DNA of 64,000 nucleotides. It comes from Gammaproteobacteria bacterium (GTDB lineage Bacteria > Pseudomonadota > Gammaproteobacteria > GRL18). Under the pieces are notes generated by a model. That model made no database searches and had not been told where the DNA came from. It saw only the letters and a program-made list of their open reading frames with translations. Of this stretch, positions 6,465-18,366 are shown piece by piece (positions within the stretch are counted from its first letter, which is position 1; every line of letters begins with the position of its first letter). A program made the position numbers and the translations under genes. Location: assembly GCA_016744995.1 (NCBI GenBank), contig JADGDG010000005.1, forward strand, positions 124,001 through 188,000. Reading direction: 5' to 3'.

Positions 6465-8114
6465 ATGCGTAAACAACAAGCAGTGCCAGTTGAAAAAAAT
6501 GTAATAGATGCTATTAAGGATTTTCTTAATGCACCACCTGAAGGCACGCCAATAGAAATTATTGATGCTTTTAATGTTATTGGTGCAGAAACGGTGTTAT
6601 TGCCGGGAATTTTCTTACAAACAGTTGAACAGGCTCCTGTTGCTATTTCTATTACTGATCCGAATGCTTATTTTTTGTATGTGAATTCAGCTTTTGAACA
6701 ATTGACTGGCTACCAGCGTGATGAAATCCTTGGTAAGAAACAATCACTATTATCGAGCCAATCAACACCGACTGAAGTTTATGAAGACTTATGGGCAACA
6801 ATTAAGCAGCGTCAGGTATGGAAAGGCAAGCTGATTAATTATCATAAAGACAAGCAGGAATATCTGGCTGAATTGACTATTTCACCTGTATTGTCAGCGA
6901 CAGGTGAGATTTGTTATTTTCTCGGAATGCACCATGACATTACGGAAGTTCACCAATTGGAACAGCGTTTGAAATTCCAAAAATCACTGGCTGAAGCTGC
7001 TATTAATGTTGCTCCTATGGTAGTTGCCATGGTTGGAGCTGATCGACAGGTGATAATGGATAACCTTGCATATAAAGCATTATTAGGTGATTTTCGAGGA
7101 ATTGAACCCGCTGGATTATTTATTGATGCCCTGGAACAGCAGATTGGTTTTAGCTTCGATAATAGCTCAACAGACAATAAAGAATTTACTAATGTTGAAG
7201 TGCGTTTAGAACCGCCAGCTTGTTCATCTTCACGTTGGTTTTCCTGTTCAGGTGTTTGTGTAACCCGACCTGATGAAACGGCTGAAAATTATTTTAAAAG
7301 TGCTCGTTCAGAGCAACGTTATTTATTGTTGATTGCTAATGATATTTCTTTACAGCGGCGACGCACCAATGAAGCGCGCTTAAATATGATCCGTTCAAAC
7401 ATGGTTGAACAACAGATGGTGCAAACAATGCGTGAGGCAATATCAGCATCTATTTATAAATTGCAGGTTCCAATGAATGTGATGAGAGCAGCACTGTCGA
7501 TGCCTGGAATAGGTAATTACCAGTGCAGGTTACGCACTACTTTACTACAAGCTCTGGATAGTAGTGATGAGGTGATGGAAAGTTTAATGAATGCATTGCC
7601 AAGACCTGTTATGGAACAGTTTGCAATGGTTAATATTAATGCCATTTTGCATGAGGTAATAAAACTGTCAACTGAGCAATTGCTGGCATCTGGTATCGTT
7701 ATAGATTGGCGACCAGCTCCTGTATTACCGACGGTGTCAGGTAAGTCAAATGCGTTAAGGAGGTTGTTTAAGTATCTCCTGGATAATGCTATAGAGTCAG
7801 TTAAAGAATCTGGTCTGCAGGATAAGGAAATTCGTCTGGATACCAGAATTGATGATCAAGAATTGATTGTTGAGGTCATTGACAATGGTGTTGGTTTGCA
7901 CGAATCAAAGCGTTTAACAGTTTTTGAGCCTTTTTATTGTGGCTGGAAAAAAGCTGCAGATCATGCTGGTATGGGGCTGACTATGGCACAGGGAGTAATC
8001 ATTGATCATGCCGGGAGTATTGAATTTGATGCTGACTTTTTTGGTGGTTGCCGTTTGTTTATTCGACTGCCAGTAAATGAAATGGACGGAGGATATACTC
8101 ATGAGTCTATTTGA
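6465..8114 (+). CDS. nifL: Nitrogen fixation negative regulator NifL
   Basis: NifL is a redox and nitrogen sensor that binds and inhibits NifA when oxygen or fixed nitrogen is present. The 549-residue protein has an N-terminal PAS domain (about residues 45-165, with [23 protein letters not shown]), which binds FAD in Azotobacter NifL. A second PAS-like region follows (about 170-285), then a coiled segment, and a GHKL ATPase domain from about residue 400 with N box [15 protein letters not shown] and GMGLTMAQG. The region corresponding to a phospho-acceptor box reads [15 protein letters not shown] and contains no His, in line with NifL acting by protein contact and not by phosphotransfer. It overlaps nifA by 14 bases, so the two are translationally coupled. 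Confidence 0.95.
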
Positions 8115-9651
8115 GAATAATATTAAATCCATTGATAAATCTATCTTGGAAACACAACTTGAGACACTTTACCTGGTCAGTCAGATCCTGAATTTTACTT
8201 TAAATTTTAGAGAAACTCAGAATGCAGTTCTTAAAGCTCTGAGCGAAGCGGGTAATATGCATCATGGCATGATCACTTTATTAGATGAAAGCAGTGGCGA
8301 TTTATTAATTAGTGCATTGCATAAAAATCCAACACCATCGAATATGGTGCGTTACAGGCAAGGCGAGGGGGTAGTTGGTGCAATTATTGAAAGCGGGCAG
8401 GCATTGATTATTCCACGTCCTTCAAATGATGAACGCTTTCTTGATCGATTACGGGTTTATGATCCTGAACTGCCTTTTATCGGAGTTCCTATTAGTATTG
8501 ATGGTGAAGTAGTGGGTGTGCTGGCTGCACAGCCTTCTGAAAATATTAGTGAATTAAGTACACATCAGCATTTTCTGGAAATGGTGGCAAACTTGATTGG
8601 TCAGCGTGTGCATCTGTCAAAAAAAGTTGAGGATGACCAGAAGGCTTTGAAGACTGAACGCGATTCTTTACGCAGGCAAGTTCGAGGTGAACATGGTTTT
8701 GCTAATATTGTAGGACATGCCCAGAGTATGCGTCATGTCTTTGAACAGCTCAGGCAAGTTGCAAAATGGAATACCACTGTATTAGTGCGAGGTGAATCAG
8801 GAACTGGTAAGGAGCTGATTGCCAATGCAATTCATTATAATTCACCAAGAGTAAATGGCCCTTTTATTAAACTTAATTGTGCGGCTTTGCCAGATAATTT
8901 ACTGGAATCAGAATTATTTGGCCATGAAAAAGGTGCATTTACTGGTGCTGTAACACAACGCAAAGGACGCTTTGAGTTGGCTAATGGCGGGACTATTTTT
9001 CTTGATGAGATTGGTGAAATTACCCCGGCTTTTCAGGCAAAACTATTAAGAGTACTGCAAGAAGGAGAGTTTGAACGAGTTGGAGGGGTCAAGACTATAA
9101 ATGTTGATGTTAGAGTGGTAACAGCGACGAATAAAGATCTGGAAGCTGAGGTTCAACAGGGAAATTTTCGTGAAGATCTTTATTATCGGCTTAATGTTAT
9201 GCCTATCCGCGTGCCTTCCTTGCGTGAACGGGCAGAAGATATTCCGGATTTAAGTTATTATCTGGTGACTAAGATTGCTAAAAGTCAGGGGCGAAAATTA
9301 GCTATTAAAGACAGTGCATTGAGTTTATTAATGCAATATGAGTGGCCTGGAAATGTTCGTGAACTGGAAAACTGTCTGGAACGTGCTGCTGTAATGTGTC
9401 GAGATGGGCAGATTGATGCAAATACCATTAATTTGACTGGCTTGCAGAGTAATCCTTTGCCCAGAAATTCAGCTAATAGTTTTTCACAAGTGGATATTGA
9501 TGATCCTGGACTGGATGAGCGGGAGCGAGTAGTTGCTGCTCTGGAACAAGCAGGCTGGGTTCAAGCGAAAGCGGCACGATTGCTCAACATGACGCCGCGA
9601 CAAATTGCCTATCGAATACAAACATTAAAAATTCAAGTTCGACAAATTTAA
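8101..9651 (+). CDS. nifA: Nif-specific sigma-54 activator NifA
   Basis: NifA is the enhancer-binding protein that activates sigma-54 promoters of nif genes. I place the start at ATG 8101 because GGAGG lies just upstream at spacing 9 and the protein then begins [14 protein letters not shown]; a longer in-frame start at 8077 has no such site. The 516-residue product has an N-terminal GAF domain (about 20-170). The AAA+ domain has Walker A GESGTGKE, the sigma-54 contact loop GAFTGA and Walker [13 protein letters not shown]-terminal Fis-type helix-turn-helix ends the protein (AAGW-like region to AYRIQTLKI). The paired-cysteine linker of oxygen-sensitive NifA proteins is not seen, as expected where NifL is present. 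Confidence 0.97.
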
Positions 9652-9683
9652 TTGTATGGGCAAATCAGGTTGGTAAACATCAA

Positions 9684-9699
9684 TGTCGTGATACAAACA
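9684..9699. promoter_or_regulatory. NifA upstream activator site for nifB, distal
   Basis: TGT at 9684-9686 and ACA at 9697-9699 are separated by 10 bases. The centre lies about 128 bases upstream of the inferred nifB start of transcription, within the usual range for NifA sites. Confidence 0.65.
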
Positions 9700-9717
9700 A
9701 ATATTTATGTTTTGTTA

Positions 9718-9733
9718 TGTTTTATTTAGAACA
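9718..9733. promoter_or_regulatory. NifA upstream activator site for nifB, proximal
   Basis: TGT at 9718-9720 and ACA at 9731-9733 are separated by 10 bases. The site begins 34 bases after the distal one, giving a tandem arrangement like that between rnfA and nifL. Confidence 0.65.
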
Positions 9734-9792
9734 ATAATCCTGGACGTATAAAAATCTACTTATAAAACAATTGGATAAAAAAGTTTTCGAAT

Positions 9793-9807
9793 TGGCATAG
9801 CATTTGC
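9793..9807 (+). promoter_or_regulatory. Sigma-54 promoter for nifB
   Basis: The sequence TGGCATAGCATTTGC has GG and GC 10 bases apart and matches TGGCAC-N5-TTGC at all but one position of the two elements. The inferred start of transcription is near 9819, about 24 bases before the nifB start. Confidence 0.85.
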
Positions 9808-9842
9808 TCAATTAATTACATCGATGCTAATCTGGAGATTAA

Positions 9843-11354
9843 ATGATGGAATTGAATGCAGCAGATCTAACGACAAAGAATATTGATGAAGGTTGTAGTT
9901 CATCAGGTTGTGGAGGAAGTAATGATCAACTCTCACATCTGCCAGAGCATATTCGTGAAAAGGTACATGATCATCCCTGCTATTCAGAAGAAGCACATCA
10001 TTATTATGCACGTATGCATGTTGCTGTTGCACCGGCGTGTAATATTCAATGTCACTACTGCAATCGGAAGTATGATTGTGCCAATGAATCACGGCCTGGT
10101 GTTGTCTCTGAATTATTAACTCCTGATCAGGCTGTAAAAAAAGTTATGGCAGTTGCAGCTAACATTCCTCAAATGACAGTTTTGGGTATTGCTGGCCCCG
10201 GTGATCCTCTGGCAAATCCTGAACGCACATTTGATACTTTTCGTCAGTTGACTGATAAGGCACCTGACATCAAGCTTTGCGTCTCAACTAATGGTCTGAC
10301 ACTGCCTGAACAGGTAGAAGAATTATGCCAACATAATATTGATCATGTCACTATTACTATCAACTGTGTTGACCCGGATGTTGGAGCTAAAATTTACCCC
10401 TGGATATTTTGGAATAATCGTCGTATTAAAGGACGCCGGGGTGCAAAAATTCTGATTGAGCAGCAACAAAAAGGCTTAGAAATGCTGACAGAAAAGGGTA
10501 TTCTTGTCAAAGTTAATTCAGTGCTGATCCCTGGCGTTAATGATCAGCATCTGGAAGAGGTCAGCAAAGTTGTTAAGGCAAAGGGTGCTTTTTTACACAA
10601 TGTAATGCCTCTCATTGCTGAAGCAGAACATGGAACATTCTATGGTGTTATGGGGCAACGTGGCCCTGAAAGTTTAGAGTTGCAAGAATTGCAGGATAAA
10701 TGTTCTGGTGATATGAATATGATGCGTCATTGTCGTCAGTGCCGTGCGGATGCAGTAGGCATGTTGGGTGAAGATCGTGGTGATGAATTTACCATGGATA
10801 AGATTGAACTTATGGAAGTTGATTATGATGATGCTATGCAAAAACGTGCTGAATATCATGCGAGCATTGAAACAAAACGAGAAGCCCAGAAAAATAAAAA
10901 TAATGAAACATTTATTTCTATTTCATCAATTAAGCGACATAAGAAAAAACAATCACGTCCAGTTTTAATGGCAGTCGCGACCAATGGCGGTGGGATCATT
11001 AATCAACACTTCGGTCATGCTAAAGAGTTTCTTGTTTATGAAGCTTCTGAAATGGATGTTCGTTTTATTGGTCATCGAAAAGTCGATTTGTATTGTAGTG
11101 GAGATAAAACCTGTGGTGAGACTGAAACCACTCTGGAAAAAATTATTAAAACTCTTAATGGTTGTGAAGCAGTGCTCTGTTCAAAAATTGGTTATGAGCC
11201 CTGGGAAATGTTAGAAGAGGCAGGTATTCAGCCGAATGGTGAACATGCAATGGAAGTGATTGAAGATGCAATTGCTGCCGTTTATATTGAAATGGTGAAG
11301 GCCGGTTTAGCGGATAAAAATATCTCAGATTCTGAAATGCAGATCAGGGCTTAG
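9843..11354 (+). CDS. nifB: Nitrogenase cofactor biosynthesis protein NifB
   Basis: NifB is a radical SAM enzyme that builds the NifB-co precursor (an 8Fe-9S-carbide cluster) of FeMo-co. The 503-residue protein carries the radical SAM motif CNIQCHYCN near residue 64 and additional conserved cysteines (CYSEE, KYDC). SAM-binding signatures [12 protein letters not shown] and [10 protein letters not shown] follow. A C-terminal NifX/NafY-like domain begins near [18 protein letters not shown] (from about residue 375). The N-terminus has CSSSGCGGS, a flexible Cys/Gly-rich stretch seen in proteobacterial NifB. GGAG lies upstream; ATG 9843 or the adjacent ATG 9846 may be used. Confidence 0.97.
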
Positions 11355-11364
11355 GAGGGGAAAT

Positions 11365-11643
11365 ATGTCTTATGAAATTATTGAATCCTGTGTGAATTGC
11401 TGGGCCTGTGTACCACTATGCCCCAGTGATGCGATTTATGAAGCAAAACCACATTTTATGATTAATAAAAAAAAATGTACAGAATGTGATGGTGATTTTA
11501 TATCAGCTCAATGTGCAAGTATTTGTCCTATAGAAGAGGCTATTATTGATAGCTCAGGTGATTTTTTAAATCCAGAAGGTTCTCTTACGGGTATTTCACC
11601 AGATTGCAGATCACAAGTTATGGTCGAAATTCAGGCACGGTGA
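11365..11643 (+). CDS. fdxN: 2[4Fe-4S] ferredoxin next to nifB (FdxN type)
   Basis: This 92-residue ferredoxin is of the type that follows nifB in many diazotrophs and is thought to supply electrons for NifB-co assembly or nitrogenase. It has a first cluster motif CVNCWACVPLCP and a second spaced motif CTECDGDFISAQC with CASICP, the longer inter-cysteine spacing typical of this nif-linked class. A strong GGAGGGG ribosome site sits just before the ATG, and it starts 10 bases after nifB, so both are co-transcribed. Confidence 0.9.
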   Translation: MSYEIIESCVNCWACVPLCPSDAIYEAKPHFMINKKKCTECDGDFISAQCASICPIEEAIIDSSGDFLNPEGSLTGISPDCRSQVMVEIQAR

Positions 11644-11772
11644 AGGAGACTGTTTTGTCAACTTATATTTTGGATGGGTCAGTAAGAGAATTAAACATCT
11701 TTATTACATTGTTTATGGCATTGTTTATTGCATGGTTGTCTTGCTTATTTACTCTGTTCGTGGAGCAATAAT

Positions 11773-13421
<1,649 letters not shown>

Positions 13422-13454
13422 TATCGTTTTATCATTAACTTTAAAGGATTTATT

Positions 13455-13811
13455 ATGCCATTAATTACGTTTACTAACCCGGAGTATAAAGATAAAACCG
13501 TTTATGCAGTTGCAGGCAGTTTTACTGAAACGGTTTTAAAAATTGCTCAAACCAATAAAATACCGATTAAATTTGATTGTGGTGATGGTGATTGTGCCAG
13601 CTGTGCCATACAGGTTAAGTACCTTGGTGATAATGGGCCCATGGGCTACCATCTGGAAGAAAAAGAAAAAAAGGTTTTACGTGAAATTGGTAAGATCAGT
13701 AAGGCAAAAATGGAACAGATGATTGTTGATGATTTGCCCAGTGAATGGCGATTAGCATGCCAGTTCATCCCTCGGGATGAAGACGTTGTGGTTGAATACG
13801 AAGCCTTATAA
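13455..13811 (+). CDS. FeSII-like (Shethna protein II-type) [2Fe-2S] ferredoxin
   Basis: The 118-residue protein has the [2Fe-2S] motif CGDGDCASC and a fourth Cys in WRLACQ. Its layout matches Azotobacter FeSII as I remember it: AVAG near residue 18, an insertion after the third Cys, then a helical segment LEEKEKKVLREIGKIS, and the ending DLPxxxRLACQ with DEDVVVEYE. FeSII binds nitrogenase under oxidative stress and locks it in an inactive, oxygen-tolerant complex. The helix and lysines of that inserted segment are the part implicated in the complex. A role in conformational protection here is therefore likely but rests on recalled similarity, not an alignment. Confidence 0.8.
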   Translation: MPLITFTNPEYKDKTVYAVAGSFTETVLKIAQTNKIPIKFDCGDGDCASCAIQVKYLGDNGPMGYHLEEKEKKVLREIGKISKAKMEQMIVDDLPSEWRLACQFIPRDEDVVVEYEAL

Positions 13812-13824
13812 AGTAAAGGCTATC

Positions 13825-14373
13825 ATGAAAACACCCCAGGAAATATTTAACAGACTGCTGAGAACTCGTCGAGGAGAGTCTGTTGAAGAAACTCTAGCTT
13901 GCATTATAGCATCCTGGTCTTTCGGCATAGGGGGGATGCCGGATTATCTGGGTTTATCGGAAGCGAGTTTTTTTCGTATGATGGCTTATTGTTTTCCTGA
14001 TTTTAGTGTTGATGAGCTTAATCTAAATGGCAAATCAATTGATGTTCGACGTATAGATGAAACAGAAGACTTACGAAAACTTCTTTTGAAGAATCTATCT
14101 GGGAACTCAAAATCAGAAATATGGATGGTAGATATTGTTATCGCTGGTTGTTTGGGAAATGATCATTTGTGGCAAGATCTTGGTTTGTGGCAGCGTGCTG
14201 ATCTTTCAAAACTTATGATGGATAATTTTTTGCCACTTGCCTCTCGTAATATTAAAGATATGAAATGGAAAAAATTTCTTTATAAGCAATTATGTGAGAC
14301 AGAAGGTGTTTATACTTGTCGTGCACCCAGTTGTGATGTGTGTGTTGATTATAAGAGTTGTTTTGACTCATAG
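13825..14373 (+). CDS. nifQ: Molybdenum donor protein NifQ
   Basis: NifQ is an iron-sulfur protein that provides molybdenum as a Mo-Fe-S cluster for FeMo-co assembly. The 182-residue protein ends with the diagnostic C-x4-C-x2-C-x5-C motif (CRAPSCDVCVDYKSC). It also shows the family feature GGMPDYLGLSEASFFRMM near residue 36. I start at ATG 13825, with AAAGG upstream, and not at the more distant in-frame ATG 13777, which overlaps the preceding gene. Together with modB at the left edge it indicates a Mo nitrogenase. Confidence 0.93.
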   Translation: MKTPQEIFNRLLRTRRGESVEETLACIIASWSFGIGGMPDYLGLSEASFFRMMAYCFPDFSVDELNLNGKSIDVRRIDETEDLRKLLLKNLSGNSKSEIWMVDIVIAGCLGNDHLWQDLGLWQRADLSKLMMDNFLPLASRNIKDMKWKKFLYKQLCETEGVYTCRAPSCDVCVDYKSCFDS

Positions 14374-14412
14374 TGAGTTGAATGAGTGATTTTATATTAT
14401 AGAAGCCTTTGC

Positions 14413-15360
14413 ATGAATAGATCAGACAAAATATCTTCTCCTATATCTTTATCGAGTCAAGTCAGTAAACAGGACCGAATAATTGGTGCCTATCTGGGTT
14501 TAGCTGTAGGGGATGCATTAGGGGCAACGACAGAATTTATGACTCCTAATGAAATTAAATATGAATACGGTATACACCAAACAATTATTGGTGGTGGATG
14601 GTTACGTCTGAAGCCTGGTCAGGTAACTGATGATACTGAAATGAGCCTGGCATTGGGACAATCTATTATTGATAATAACGAAGTTATTAATATTGCAGTT
14701 GCTCAGGCTTTTAGTGACTGGATGCATACTAAACCGATTGATATTGGCAATACTGTAAGAAGAGGCATCCTTCACTATAGAACTTCAGGAAATCCAGATA
14801 ATGATAAAAATGAATATGATGCTGGAAATGGTGCTTGTATGCGTACTTTACCAATAGCTATTTTTCATTGTAATTCATCGTTTGAAGTCTTACAAAAAGC
14901 TTCAAAAATACAGTGCCATGTAACTCACAATAATATCGTTTCGGATGTGGGGACGGAAGCTGTTTTAAAAATGCTGACGGCGGCGTTTAATGGCAACTCA
15001 AAAAATTCCCTGGAGAAATATGCACATGCCCTAGTGGATAAATTCCCTTTGTATCGATATGATAAACGTAAAATTGAAAATCCTTCAGGATGGATAGTTG
15101 AAACATTGCAATCTGTATTTCAGGCATTTTTTACACACAATAATTTTGAGGATATTCTGATAGATGTGGTCAATCGAGGGGGGGATGCTGATACTACGGG
15201 TGCAATTGCAGGTATGTTGGCAGGTGCTTGTTTTGGTCAAAAATCTATACCAGTTGAATGGTTCAATAAACTGGATGCTAACGTAAGAAATAGTTGTACA
15301 AAACAGGCAATTGATTTGTTGTTATTATCTGAACCTGAATCATTCAATACCTCTGGGTAG
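14413..15360 (+). CDS. draG: ADP-ribosyl-dinitrogenase reductase glycohydrolase DraG
   Basis: DraG removes ADP-ribose from an arginine of NifH and so reactivates nitrogenase after ammonium or dark/energy shock. The 315-residue product has the ADP-ribosylglycohydrolase metal-binding motifs QVTDDTEMSLALG (about residue 75) and GGDADTTGAIAGMLAG (about residue 255). The N-terminal GAYLGLAVGDALGATTEFM is also typical. I choose ATG 14413 because the family signature begins soon after; an upstream frame extension to 14386 is unsupported. The partner transferase DraT is not visible in the window. Confidence 0.88.
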   Translation: MNRSDKISSPISLSSQVSKQDRIIGAYLGLAVGDALGATTEFMTPNEIKYEYGIHQTIIGGGWLRLKPGQVTDDTEMSLALGQSIIDNNEVINIAVAQAFSDWMHTKPIDIGNTVRRGILHYRTSGNPDNDKNEYDAGNGACMRTLPIAIFHCNSSFEVLQKASKIQCHVTHNNIVSDVGTEAVLKMLTAAFNGNSKNSLEKYAHALVDKFPLYRYDKRKIENPSGWIVETLQSVFQAFFTHNNFEDILIDVVNRGGDADTTGAIAGMLAGACFGQKSIPVEWFNKLDANVRNSCTKQAIDLLLLSEPESFNTSG

Positions 15361-15416: not shown

Positions 15417-15827
15417 TTAAACAATTACTTTTTTCTGAATTTTAAGGTGTGCAGCCAGGGCACTATCCATAGTGGCAGCATGCAAATTGAACCAATTAGG
15501 TATATGCTCTGTGACATAGCTTTTTGCCATCATTGTAGAGCCTTGTTTGAGCTTTTTTGTTAAACGATTCAGTTCACCTAATACCCGTAAGTGCTCTACC
15601 ATATGTTCATGTATGGCAGGGAAATTTGTCTGTTTCATCAATTGATCTTCAGCGTTAAAATGTGCTTTGGTATGTTCACTAAGTGTTTCAAAGAGTTCAA
15701 TAAAATGAGTTTTGTTATCAGTCTTTCCCAATTGATTAACCAGTTCAATAAACTCTAAATGGGTTTCGTCCATTGAAGTGATGCCCAGAACGTAAGCAGG
15801 ATTTTCCGCATTGATTAACACTGTCAT
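15417..15827 (-). CDS. Bacteriohemerythrin-like protein
   Basis: This 136-residue four-helix protein has the hemerythrin diiron ligand pattern: DETHLEF in helix 1, EHTKAHFNAED in helix 2, HEHMVEHLRVL in helix 3, and NLHAATMDSALAAHL in helix 4. Such proteins bind oxygen reversibly and can deliver it to oxidases or sense it. It overlaps the upstream small cysteine gene by 4 bases and belongs to a sigma-54-controlled operon with the SIR2-like gene, so I infer a role in oxygen handling during nitrogen fixation. Confidence 0.85.
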   Translation of the reverse strand: MTVLINAENPAYVLGITSMDETHLEFIELVNQLGKTDNKTHFIELFETLSEHTKAHFNAEDQLMKQTNFPAIHEHMVEHLRVLGELNRLTKKLKQGSTMMAKSYVTEHIPNWFNLHAATMDSALAAHLKIQKKVIV

Positions 15828-16060
15828 GATTCTATTTCTCTGTTCTGTTGATGATATATAATTGATTTTTCAAGTTTCTGGGCAATGTAAGTACTGTATT
15901 CATTGATATTTTCATAGTTGTGATCTGTTGCCAGGGCCGTTAGTTTTGCCGTTAAATCACGAAGCTGAACAATCTCCTGCAAACTTCTGTTGCAGGTGAG
16001 ACAACGTTTACCATCATCACGACAGGCCATTTTCCCCTGGCAGGGTCTAAACTGACTCAT
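15824..16060 (-). CDS. Small four-cysteine protein of the nif-linked operon
   Basis: The 78-residue protein has four cysteines spaced C-x5-C-x6-C-x2-C within its first 25 residues (MSQFRPCQGKMAC, then RCLTCNRSLQEI), followed by helical sequence. The pattern recalls DUF1289-type zinc or iron-sulfur motifs but with altered spacing, so I do not assign a family. I start at ATG 16060, preceded by GAGG at spacing 9. It is sandwiched between a SIR2-like protein and a hemerythrin, overlapping the latter by 4 bases. The function is unknown. Confidence 0.7.
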   Translation of the reverse strand: MSQFRPCQGKMACRDDGKRCLTCNRSLQEIVQLRDLTAKLTALATDHNYENINEYSTYIAQKLEKSIIYHQQNREIES

Positions 16061-16072
16061 ATTTAACAACCT

Positions 16073-16951
16073 CTACAAAATTTCGGTGAGTAATGGTGTT
16101 TCAGAGTGTTCCGCAACTGTTAAAAACTCATCAATATCTGCATTAATAATTTCAATATTTTTTTGTTCACAGAAACGTCTCTCTTTGTCATTTGGTTTTT
16201 TAATTAATGCCCATCCTGCTGGTTTACCTGCGGCATAAATCATATCAGAGAGTATCATTCGCTCGGTGTCTCTGGTCATGCTCAGTCCAATGAAAAGATA
16301 TTGCTTTCCCTGGCGATAAGATTTCAGAAAATCCGGGATAGCCAGGCCACCCATTAATTCAGTGATATAATCGACATAATCTGCATCGGAAGCAATATAG
16401 GTTGCATCTGGAAGGGGACTGCCCATTGGTTTAAACAAAATGGGCAAGCTGGTATCAACATCTGTCTGGGCAATTTCTTTGTCAGAATATTTATTGCCAT
16501 CATAATGATTGATTTGGAAACGGAAATTTGTACCACTCACTCGAGAAATGCCGCGGATCAGAGTGTGTGCTGTCTGAGAGTAAGTGTCCTGTAATTGAGT
16601 ATCTCGATTGATGTCAATGACATAAGGAGGTTTTATGCTGGCTATCCAGTCATGAAAGGGAGCTCTTGTCCATTCTGTCTGACCATAAAGAGTATCTAAA
16701 AAACGGTTAACCGCCATGCGGCCGCGTTTTAATTCGACATCCATTGCTGCCCGAGGAAATTCGTACATAAGTCTGGGAGCCATTGGCTTGCCATTATTCA
16801 TTGCCAGAATAAGACTGTCACTATCTGCAGGGATTGCTTCTCCTGTTTCAGTATTGGTGCTGCCATTTAATACATCTGGTCCCAGATAAGGGACTATATT
16901 CCCCGCTTTGATGCCTGCAGTTATAACTTGCATAGCCTGTTTGCTCATCAT
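16073..16951 (-). CDS. SIR2-like domain protein, first gene of a nif-linked operon
   Basis: The 292-residue protein begins with a Rossmann-like segment KAGNIVPYLGPDVLNG, which resembles the NAD-binding GAGxS region of SIR2-like domains with changed residues. The late stretch QYLFIGLSMTRDTERMIL matches the conserved FxGxS element of that superfamily. Classical sirtuin catalytic His and zinc cysteines are not evident, so deacetylation is unlikely. GGAG stands before two adjacent ATG codons (16951 and 16948). A sigma-54 promoter and a NifA-type site lie upstream. It could bind NAD or ADP-ribose near DraG, but no activity can be assigned from sequence. Confidence 0.7.
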   Translation of the reverse strand: MMSKQAMQVITAGIKAGNIVPYLGPDVLNGSTNTETGEAIPADSDSLILAMNNGKPMAPRLMYEFPRAAMDVELKRGRMAVNRFLDTLYGQTEWTRAPFHDWIASIKPPYVIDINRDTQLQDTYSQTAHTLIRGISRVSGTNFRFQINHYDGNKYSDKEIAQTDVDTSLPILFKPMGSPLPDATYIASDADYVDYITELMGGLAIPDFLKSYRQGKQYLFIGLSMTRDTERMILSDMIYAAGKPAGWALIKKPNDKERRFCEQKNIEIINADIDEFLTVAEHSETPLLTEIL

Positions 16952-16987
16952 TTTGCTCCATAAAAATATCTATAATATTAATCGTGA

Positions 16988-17002
16988 GCAAAAAACATAC
17001 CA
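16988..17002 (-). promoter_or_regulatory. Sigma-54 promoter for the SIR2-like/hemerythrin operon
   Basis: On the minus strand the sequence reads TGGTATGTTTTTTGC, with GG and GC separated by exactly 10 bases and a perfect TTGC element. It resembles the nifL promoter in having TGGTAT at -24. The inferred start of transcription near 16976 gives a 25-base leader. Confidence 0.7.
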
Positions 17003-17044
17003 AAGATGTAAGTATCTGATTTAAAATAGATGATTAAATATAAA

Positions 17045-17060
17045 TGTTGTGTTTCTTACA
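17045..17060. promoter_or_regulatory. NifA-type site upstream of the SIR2-like operon
   Basis: TGT at 17045-17047 and ACA at 17058-17060 are separated by exactly 10 bases. The centre is about 75 bases upstream of the inferred start of transcription, a plausible place for NifA. Confidence 0.55.
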
Positions 17061-17329: not shown

Positions 17330-18259
17330 ATGAATAAAACTGCCTATATTTCACATCCAGTTTGTTTAAAACATGATAATGGTATTGACCATCCTGAATC
17401 TCCCAGGCGTCTGTTAGCTATAGATAAGCAGCTAAAGGATAGCGGCCTGCATCAGGATTTGGAGCATTTTGAAGCACCTGAAGTAAGCAGAGAACAGCTT
17501 GAAAGAGTGCATAGCAATGAATATCTGGATTATGTAAAAAAAAATACGCCAGCAACATTGACTGGGACTTTTTACCTTGATCCAGATACCCGGTTATCAC
17601 GCTACGCTCTTGATGCTGCTGGAAGAGCAGCAGGGGCTGTGGTACATGCGGTTGATTTAGTTATTGAGAAAAAGGTCAATAATGCTTTCTGTGCTGTCAG
17701 ACCTCCAGGTCACCATGCTAAAAAAGATCAGGCTATGGGTTTTTGTGTCTTTAATAATATTACCATTGGTATCGCACATGCATTAGAACACCATGGTCTG
17801 GAACGGGTTGCTTTGCTGGATTTTGATGTTCATCATGGCAATGGCAGTGAGAATATTATCGCTAGTGATGAAAGAGTTTTATTTTGTTCAATATTTCAGC
17901 ATCCATTCTATCCCGGTGAACCTTGTTCAAATAATAAGCACATTATCTGTTCACCAATGAAGGCGGGTGCTTCAGGCAATGAGTTTCGTCAGATTGTACA
18001 GGATAAATGGCTGCCTGCATTGAATCAATTTAAACCACAGATGATTTTTATTTCAGCTGGTTTTGATGCACATGCGGATGACTTTCTGGCGAACCTTAAC
18101 TTCACTGAATCTGATTACCAATGGGTCAGTGAACTGATTGTTGCTGTTGCTGATAAATACTCTGAAGGTCGTATCGTATCAAGTCTGGAAGGAGGATATC
18201 AGGTGGATGCCTTAGCCCGTTCAGTTGAGACTCATCTTAAATCATTACTCAGCAAATAA
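17330..18259 (+). CDS. Histone deacetylase family protein (AcuC/class II-like)
   Basis: Members of this zinc-dependent family deacetylate lysines, acetylpolyamines or other amides. The 309-residue protein has the active-site motifs RPPGHHA (residue about 125), DFDVHHGNG (about 165) and GFDAHADD (about 245), plus the ending SLEGGYQ, so all catalytic His/Asp and Zn ligands seem present. The N-terminal HPESPRRL is common in the bacterial class II-like group. A GAGGT ribosome site precedes the ATG. The substrate cannot be told from the neighbourhood. Confidence 0.88.
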   Translation: MNKTAYISHPVCLKHDNGIDHPESPRRLLAIDKQLKDSGLHQDLEHFEAPEVSREQLERVHSNEYLDYVKKNTPATLTGTFYLDPDTRLSRYALDAAGRAAGAVVHAVDLVIEKKVNNAFCAVRPPGHHAKKDQAMGFCVFNNITIGIAHALEHHGLERVALLDFDVHHGNGSENIIASDERVLFCSIFQHPFYPGEPCSNNKHIICSPMKAGASGNEFRQIVQDKWLPALNQFKPQMIFISAGFDAHADDFLANLNFTESDYQWVSELIVAVADKYSEGRIVSSLEGGYQVDALARSVETHLKSLLSK

Positions 18260-18330
18260 TAAATTCTTCCTGTTTACCGTTCTATAGAGTTTGTACATTG
18301 TTTGTAGTGATATAGTTGATGACCATCTTT

Positions 18331-18366
18331 AAGAGCTTCTTTAAGAGCTTCTTTAAGAGCTTCTTT
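18331..18366. repeat. Three perfect 12-bp tandem repeats
   Basis: The 12-base unit AAGAGCTTCTTT occurs three times without change, preceded by a partial copy (ATCTTT). It lies in the 149-base gap between the HDAC-family gene and the hydroxyacid dehydrogenase gene. AGAGCTTCT contains an AAGCTCTT-like palindromic core, so the copies could also pair with each other. Confidence 0.9.

Follow-up and report, generated by a model that had tools for sequence, protein, structure and literature searches.

Which part does a SIR2-like protein play in nitrogen fixation when its gene shares an operon with genes for a small four-cysteine protein and a hemerythrin? This question was raised by a 64,000-nucleotide stretch of gammaproteobacterial DNA, the whole of which is called the window below. 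It carries the regulatory part of a nif region, with rnf, nifL, nifA, nifB, fdxN, the gene for a flavodiiron protein, ferredoxin genes, nifQ and draG. The SIR2-like, four-Cys (C4) and hemerythrin (HHE) genes are close-packed on the minus strand at 15417-16951. An earlier note, made from the letters of the window, had described three tightly packed genes next to draG, and both points were borne out: the gap between SIR2 and C4 was 3 bp (12 bp counted from the C4 start at 16060), C4 and HHE overlapped by 4 bp (ATGA), and a convergent draG gene (TIGR02662) adjoined the operon. Because of the short gaps and the ATGA overlap, co-translation of SIR2-C4-HHE is likely. A longer form of C4 can be read at 15824-16069 on the minus strand (81 aa from TTG 16069); homologues suggest the ATG at 16060 as the start. 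The features used below are as follows.

16073..16951, minus strand: SIR2_2 (PF13289) protein, 292 aa, single domain, class 1
15824..16060, minus strand: C4 protein, DUF1289-like, 78 aa when started at the conserved ATG
15417..15827, minus strand: bacteriohemerythrin (HHE), 136 aa, single-domain, with all seven iron ligands
16987..17002, minus strand: sigma-54 promoter, TGGTATG-N4-TTGCT, 51 bp before the start codon of SIR2
17045..17060, minus strand: palindromic upstream activator site of the NifA type, TGT-N10-ACA, 109 bp before the SIR2 start
14386..15360, plus strand: draG, convergent neighbour outside the operon
6465..14373, plus strand: nifL-nifA-nifB-fdxN-flavodiiron protein-2Fe2S ferredoxin-2Fe2S ferredoxin-nifQ, context that is syntenic with the operon in many gammaproteobacteria
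G000:C28:121179-121943: draT, adjoining nifH, outside the window

The nifH and draT genes lie beyond the window edge on the same contig, about 20 kb from the operon. The place that nifH or draT takes in relatives is occupied here by a zinc-dependent histone-deacetylase-like gene (17330-18259; PF00850, E 3.6e-85), divergent from the SIR2 operon and about 0.38 kb away. Between it and a 2-hydroxyacid dehydrogenase-like gene there is a short tandem repeat (18325-18365) with a unit of about 12 bp (CTTTAAGAGCTT). The flavodiiron protein (11728-13068; ODP and flavodoxin domains) is encoded in the nifB operon between fdxN and the two ferredoxins and is a possible O2/NO reductase; the block of flavodiiron protein (FDP), two ferredoxins (Fd) and nifQ is common to many relatives.

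Distribution of the SIR2-like gene and of the three-gene set

The occurrence of the SIR2-like gene was compared with that of nifH. Among 377 gammaproteobacterial genomes the SIR2 profile matched strongly in 38, nifH was present in 42 and both were found in 36 (p 1.3e-41), so that the gene occurred in 36 of the 42 nifH genomes and in 2 of the 335 without nifH. In one of these two SIR2-only genomes the gene sits at a contig end, and the other genome is 95% complete with 6% contamination, so the absence of nifH may be an assembly effect. Co-occurrence was also seen in a phylum-wide sample (18/22, p 9e-16) and in a sample of relatives (7/8), and the distance from SIR2 to nifH was at most 44 kb in 26 of 28 same-contig pairs. 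Within the gammaproteobacteria this gene ranks close to the nif core.

Two classes of the protein were distinguished. Class 1 comprises gamma- and zetaproteobacterial proteins with 61-83% identity to the window protein, typically encoded in the order nifKDH<>draT-SIR2-C4-HHE><draG-nifQ-Fd-Fd-FDP-fdxN-nifB-nifA-nifL; unlike this order, draT and nifHDK of the window organism lie elsewhere in the nif cluster. Class 2, found in alphaproteobacteria, Methylococcus and some other gammaproteobacteria, has about 25% identity to the window protein and is typically encoded in nifB-fdxN-nifZ-nifT-SIR2 operons. On a plasmid of Methylococcus sp. EFPC2 (L146), nifA and nifB were accompanied by a class-2 SIR2 operon with nifZ, nifT, LRR 4Fe4S, DegT-like and BolA genes.

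In the genome collection, 483 relatives encode the SIR2 protein, and the best 80 by similarity were examined, so the locus sample leans to Chromatiales. Among the 78 gamma- and zetaproteobacterial loci of this set with at least 1.2 kb downstream of SIR2, C4 and HHE were both present in 19, HHE only in 14, C4 only in 9 and neither in 36. The SIR2 gene thus does not need C4 or HHE. The states of the triad cluster on the SIR2 tree, yet several gains or losses are needed to explain them. The earlier note had proposed a search of diazotroph genomes for the same three-gene set. Linkage to nif is supported by the SIR2 gene (36 of 42 nifH genomes), but the full set is conserved in a subset only, with C4 and HHE together in 19 of 78 loci.

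A sigma-54 promoter with an upstream activator site

The sigma-54 site TGGTATGTTTTTTGCT at 16987-17002 (minus strand) has a GG-GC spacing of exactly 10 bp. A strict sigma-54 pattern matched four times in the 64-kb window against 0.23 expected, a number reached by no shuffle, and the four matches precede rnf, nifL, nifB and the SIR2 operon. Upstream regions of 79 homologues were compared. A sigma-54 site, counted if the GG/GC spacing was exact and 6 or more of 8 further positions matched, was present in 54 of 79 regions against 2.5% of shuffles, and nearly all sites were 47-64 bp before the SIR2 start. The TGT-N10-ACA pattern alone was not rarer than chance within the window (23 found, 21.8 expected); the copy at 17045-17060 gains weight from its position and from its conservation, because the pattern was found in 65 of 79 homologous upstream regions against 7.7% of shuffles. 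The site is palindromic, and in relatives it may also serve a divergent nifH or a neighbouring draT. Both elements named in the earlier note, the -24/-12 element and the conserved TGT-N10-ACA upstream of it, were thus confirmed, and the proposed membership in the NifA/sigma-54 regulon is supported by the promoter here and in homologues. It also agrees with Rhodobacter data: the R. capsulatus SIR2 protein Rcc03262 was detected in the wild type and not found without NifA (PMC6925177).

The SIR2-like protein has a predicted NADase fold and has lost the catalytic dyad

The window protein matched PF13289 (SIR2_2; E 7.6e-10), as did 49 of 49 members, and in the profile search it matched this family only, not the classical sirtuin family (PF02146). 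The structure prediction called for in the earlier note gave an AF2 model with pLDDT 88.8 and pTM 0.88, whose best structural matches (VIA) were ThsA (Z 18.8), KomBC (Z 18.4) and DSR2 (Z 18.1), so membership in the ThsA/DSR2 type is supported by profile and fold. The fold is shared over nearly the whole chain (Z 17-19), and the Asn of the TTNYD-type motif is kept in class 1. The nif protein differs from these NADases in being single-domain and nif-regulated, in lacking defence partners, in the replacement of the catalytic His and in an extra beta-hairpin between the Asn and His positions. A sequence search of the PDB returned nothing meaningful with class 1 only or with the R. etli member alone.

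The catalytic Asn, N115, was kept in 41 of 41 class-1 proteins and aligns by sequence with N107 of the KomC TTNYD motif. Position 176, assigned as the catalytic-His position by motif (KxHG/KPMG) and spacing, not by residue-level superposition, carried Met in 34, Leu in 5, Thr in 2 and His in 0 of 41 class-1 proteins, and is M176 in the window protein. In class 2, Asn is replaced by Trp in 8 of 8 and His is present in 4 of 8. No member examined (41 of class 1, 8 of class 2) kept Asn and His together, and the dyad of active SIR2-domain NADases (KomC N107/H146 type) is therefore missing from both classes. The earlier note had spoken of lost catalytic residues; this is right for His, while Asn is retained in class 1. 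Since class 1 never has the His and class 2 loses the Asn, the protein is probably not an active NADase or deacetylase. Other chemistry through the invariant H100 or D117 may still occur despite the loss of the canonical dyad. The invariant residues of the class-1 pocket region are G24, D113, N115, D117, K174, G177, D189, D191 and R231.

The four-Cys protein and the hemerythrin

The C4 motif is CX5C-X6-CXXC-GR, with all four Cys invariant in 30 aligned members; one further member (locus L054, beyond the 30) has lost the last Cys. The protein resembles DUF1289 (PF06945), a family of small four-Cys proteins, in having four Cys followed by GR and a helix, but it has CX5C spacing in the first Cys pair and scores below the gathering cut-off (15.7 bits against 27 for the window C4; best member E 2.8e-4). 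Weak DUF1289 matches were found in 23 of 30 members. The C4 model (pLDDT 87) has a predicted two-helix tail and gave no match in the PDB at E 10, an absence that is no evidence of a new fold. No C4 gene was found in a search of plasmids.

The hemerythrin identity proposed earlier was confirmed. HHE matches PF01814 (E 8.5e-9) and scores 67.9 bits with TIGR02481, above the cut-off of 51.75, and its iron ligands in the H..HxxxE..HxxxH..HxxxxD set (H23, H56, E60, H75, H79, H116 and D121) are invariant in 32 of 32 members. It shares all seven metal ligands and the single domain with other bacteriohemerythrins (TIGR02481, e.g., Methylococcus McHr), and differs from them in forming its own subfamily that is often encoded in nif operons and whose strong members here occur only in SIR2-bearing genomes. 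HHE is one of ten PF01814 matches in the genome of the window organism. Strong matches to the subfamily (E<1e-38) were obtained in 13 of 23 SIR2-bearing genomes, but in none of the 6 diazotrophs that lack SIR2 and none of the 48 genomes without nif (p 6e-9). That HHE serves O2 handling for nitrogenase has about an even chance.

Hemerythrins of this kind also occurred away from SIR2. In L186 (G533; 7880-10111) a nif-subfamily hemerythrin lies directly downstream of nifA, apparently in the nifLA operon, and in two Oceanobacter loci (L052 and L059, about 1200-1650) a nif-type hemerythrin lies beyond nifHDK by a nifX/Y-like gene, not behind SIR2. Hemerythrin was thus drawn into nif operons more than once. 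In three genomes (L187-L189) HHE was either distant from SIR2 or not near any recognised nif gene. A literature search for hemerythrin together with nif yielded only a figure legend, which lists hr (hemerythrin) as part of the nif regulon in Ca. Tectiglobus diatomicola (PMC11208148).

Homologues on record

SIR2 family genes of nif clusters have already been recorded. In P. stutzeri, PST1325 adjoins nifH and is annotated as SIR2 family (PMC11332353); its induction during N2 fixation was 9.7-fold, and nitrogenase activity at 0.5% O2 was 23% of the wild-type level in a non-polar mutant (PMC2820453). PST1325 and nifH are divergently oriented, an arrangement also seen in relatives of the window gene, and by synteny and family annotation PST1325 is probably the orthologue of the window SIR2 gene. 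ZMO1821 of Z. mobilis increases during N2 fixation, and a deacetylase function was guessed for it (PMC8600466). These two proteins, Rcc03262 and R. etli RHE_RS30545 share with the window protein that they are SIR2_2 proteins in a nif region and induced with nif. RHE_RS30545 differs in being a class-2 protein, with about 25% identity, loss of the Asn and a gene in a nifZT operon, and Rcc03262 is class-2-like by operon structure. Further genes are on record in Rhodovulum and rhizobia. None of the four is described with C4 and hemerythrin genes, and a literature search, which had most subscription journals outside its range, found no description of a SIR2-C4-HHE operon. The statement in the earlier note that this was not a described system accordingly stands, within that search, for the three-gene module; the SIR2 gene of nif clusters is known but uncharacterised. 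NafU of A. vinelandii was considered as an identity and rejected: PMC8907163 speculates that NafU resides in the inner membrane, and SIR2 and hemerythrin do not appear there.

Discussion

We regard it as highly likely that the operon is a nif-dedicated accessory operon. The whole explanation that we prefer, a NifA/sigma-54-controlled accessory operon of molybdenum nitrogenase with a non-enzymatic SIR2 protein and O2 or redox add-ons, may be right or wrong with roughly equal chance. The SIR2-like protein would be a catalytically degenerate relative of the ThsA/KomC/DSR2 NADases that kept the Rossmann-type pocket; its binding of a ligand such as a pyridine nucleotide or an ADP-ribose-like compound, and/or of a component of nitrogenase, would let the enzyme reach or keep full activity. 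Where nitrogen is fixed near oxygen, mostly in sulfur-oxidising and phototrophic Chromatiales, a dedicated O2-binding bacteriohemerythrin would have joined the same transcript, and a small metal-binding four-Cys protein would often have been added too, forming a local oxygen or redox module with C4 as metal or redox partner and hemerythrin as local O2 binder. To the tentative view that SIR2 acts by binding a ligand, and is not purely a scaffold for assembly, we give a little less than an even chance. It is a rather doubtful further step that a sirtuin-fold NADase became a non-catalytic ligand sensor or assembly factor and that oxygen-exposed lineages coupled a dedicated hemerythrin to it to gate or shield nitrogenase; if true, this would be a new kind of post-translational oxygen or redox control of nitrogen fixation. 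A gene present in 86% of the sampled gammaproteobacterial diazotrophs and in nearly none of the non-fixers has no assigned function, although P. stutzeri requires its probable orthologue to reach full nitrogenase activity. Its function bears on minimal nif gene sets in engineering and on the survival of nitrogenase in oxygen, and the gene clearly exemplifies the recruitment of a defence-type SIR2 fold into metabolism, apparently without catalysis.

The main rival is a pure maturation role, in which the SIR2-like protein would serve as a scaffold for maturation or assembly of nitrogenase, like accessories of the NifZ/NifT/NifW type, and would sense neither nucleotides nor oxygen; C4 and hemerythrin would then be additions. 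In Rhizobium etli the class-2 gene shares an operon with nifB-fdxN-nifZ-nifT, an arrangement that fits maturation no less well than sensing. The R. capsulatus gene sits together with nifB1-nifZT (PMC6925177); class 1 is divergent from nifH, the catalytic dyad is lost and the PST1325 mutant retains 23% activity, as for an accessory (PMC2820453). The invariant residues of the class-1 pocket region, however, seem to be more than a pure scaffold might need, and we think this role possible but on balance unlikely. The SIR2 fold and the suggestion for Zymomonas (PMC8600466) favour an active sirtuin deacetylase acting on acetylated NifA, NifH or NifK, but the best structural matches are NADase-type SIR2_2 proteins and the classical sirtuin family is unmatched; this reading was dropped on the residues and is hardly probable. 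A stray anti-phage NADase in a nif island would explain the match to ThsA, DSR2 and KomC, but PADLOC matched 0 of 37 members, no defence partner is present, the catalytic His is lost, and the gene is strictly nif-co-occurring with a nif promoter, which mostly refutes this reading and makes its chance close to nil.

A partnership with DraT/DraG was attractive by synteny; in it the SIR2 protein would tune reversible NifH ADP-ribosylation by binding NAD+ or ADP-ribose. The earlier note, which had placed the operon next to draG, had suggested that it could bind NAD or ADP-ribose. SIR2-C4-HHE lies between draT and draG in many loci, at least 16 loci have a same-strand draT directly upstream of SIR2 and no more than 500 bp away, and draG is convergent in the window. 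However, the presence of SIR2 does not follow draT, which was found in 17 of 38 SIR2-bearing genomes against 5 of 6 SIR2-less diazotrophs (p 0.19, in the wrong direction), and the R. etli symbiotic plasmid has SIR2 in a nif operon with no draT or draG listed nearby. Since SIR2-bearing genomes show no enrichment of draT, a role dedicated to DraT/DraG is very unlikely, and it was dropped after this census. In a congener, draT itself seems broken: the gene at G014:C176:6447-7085 has one in-frame stop, and its C-terminal part matches G014:C56:13731-13871.
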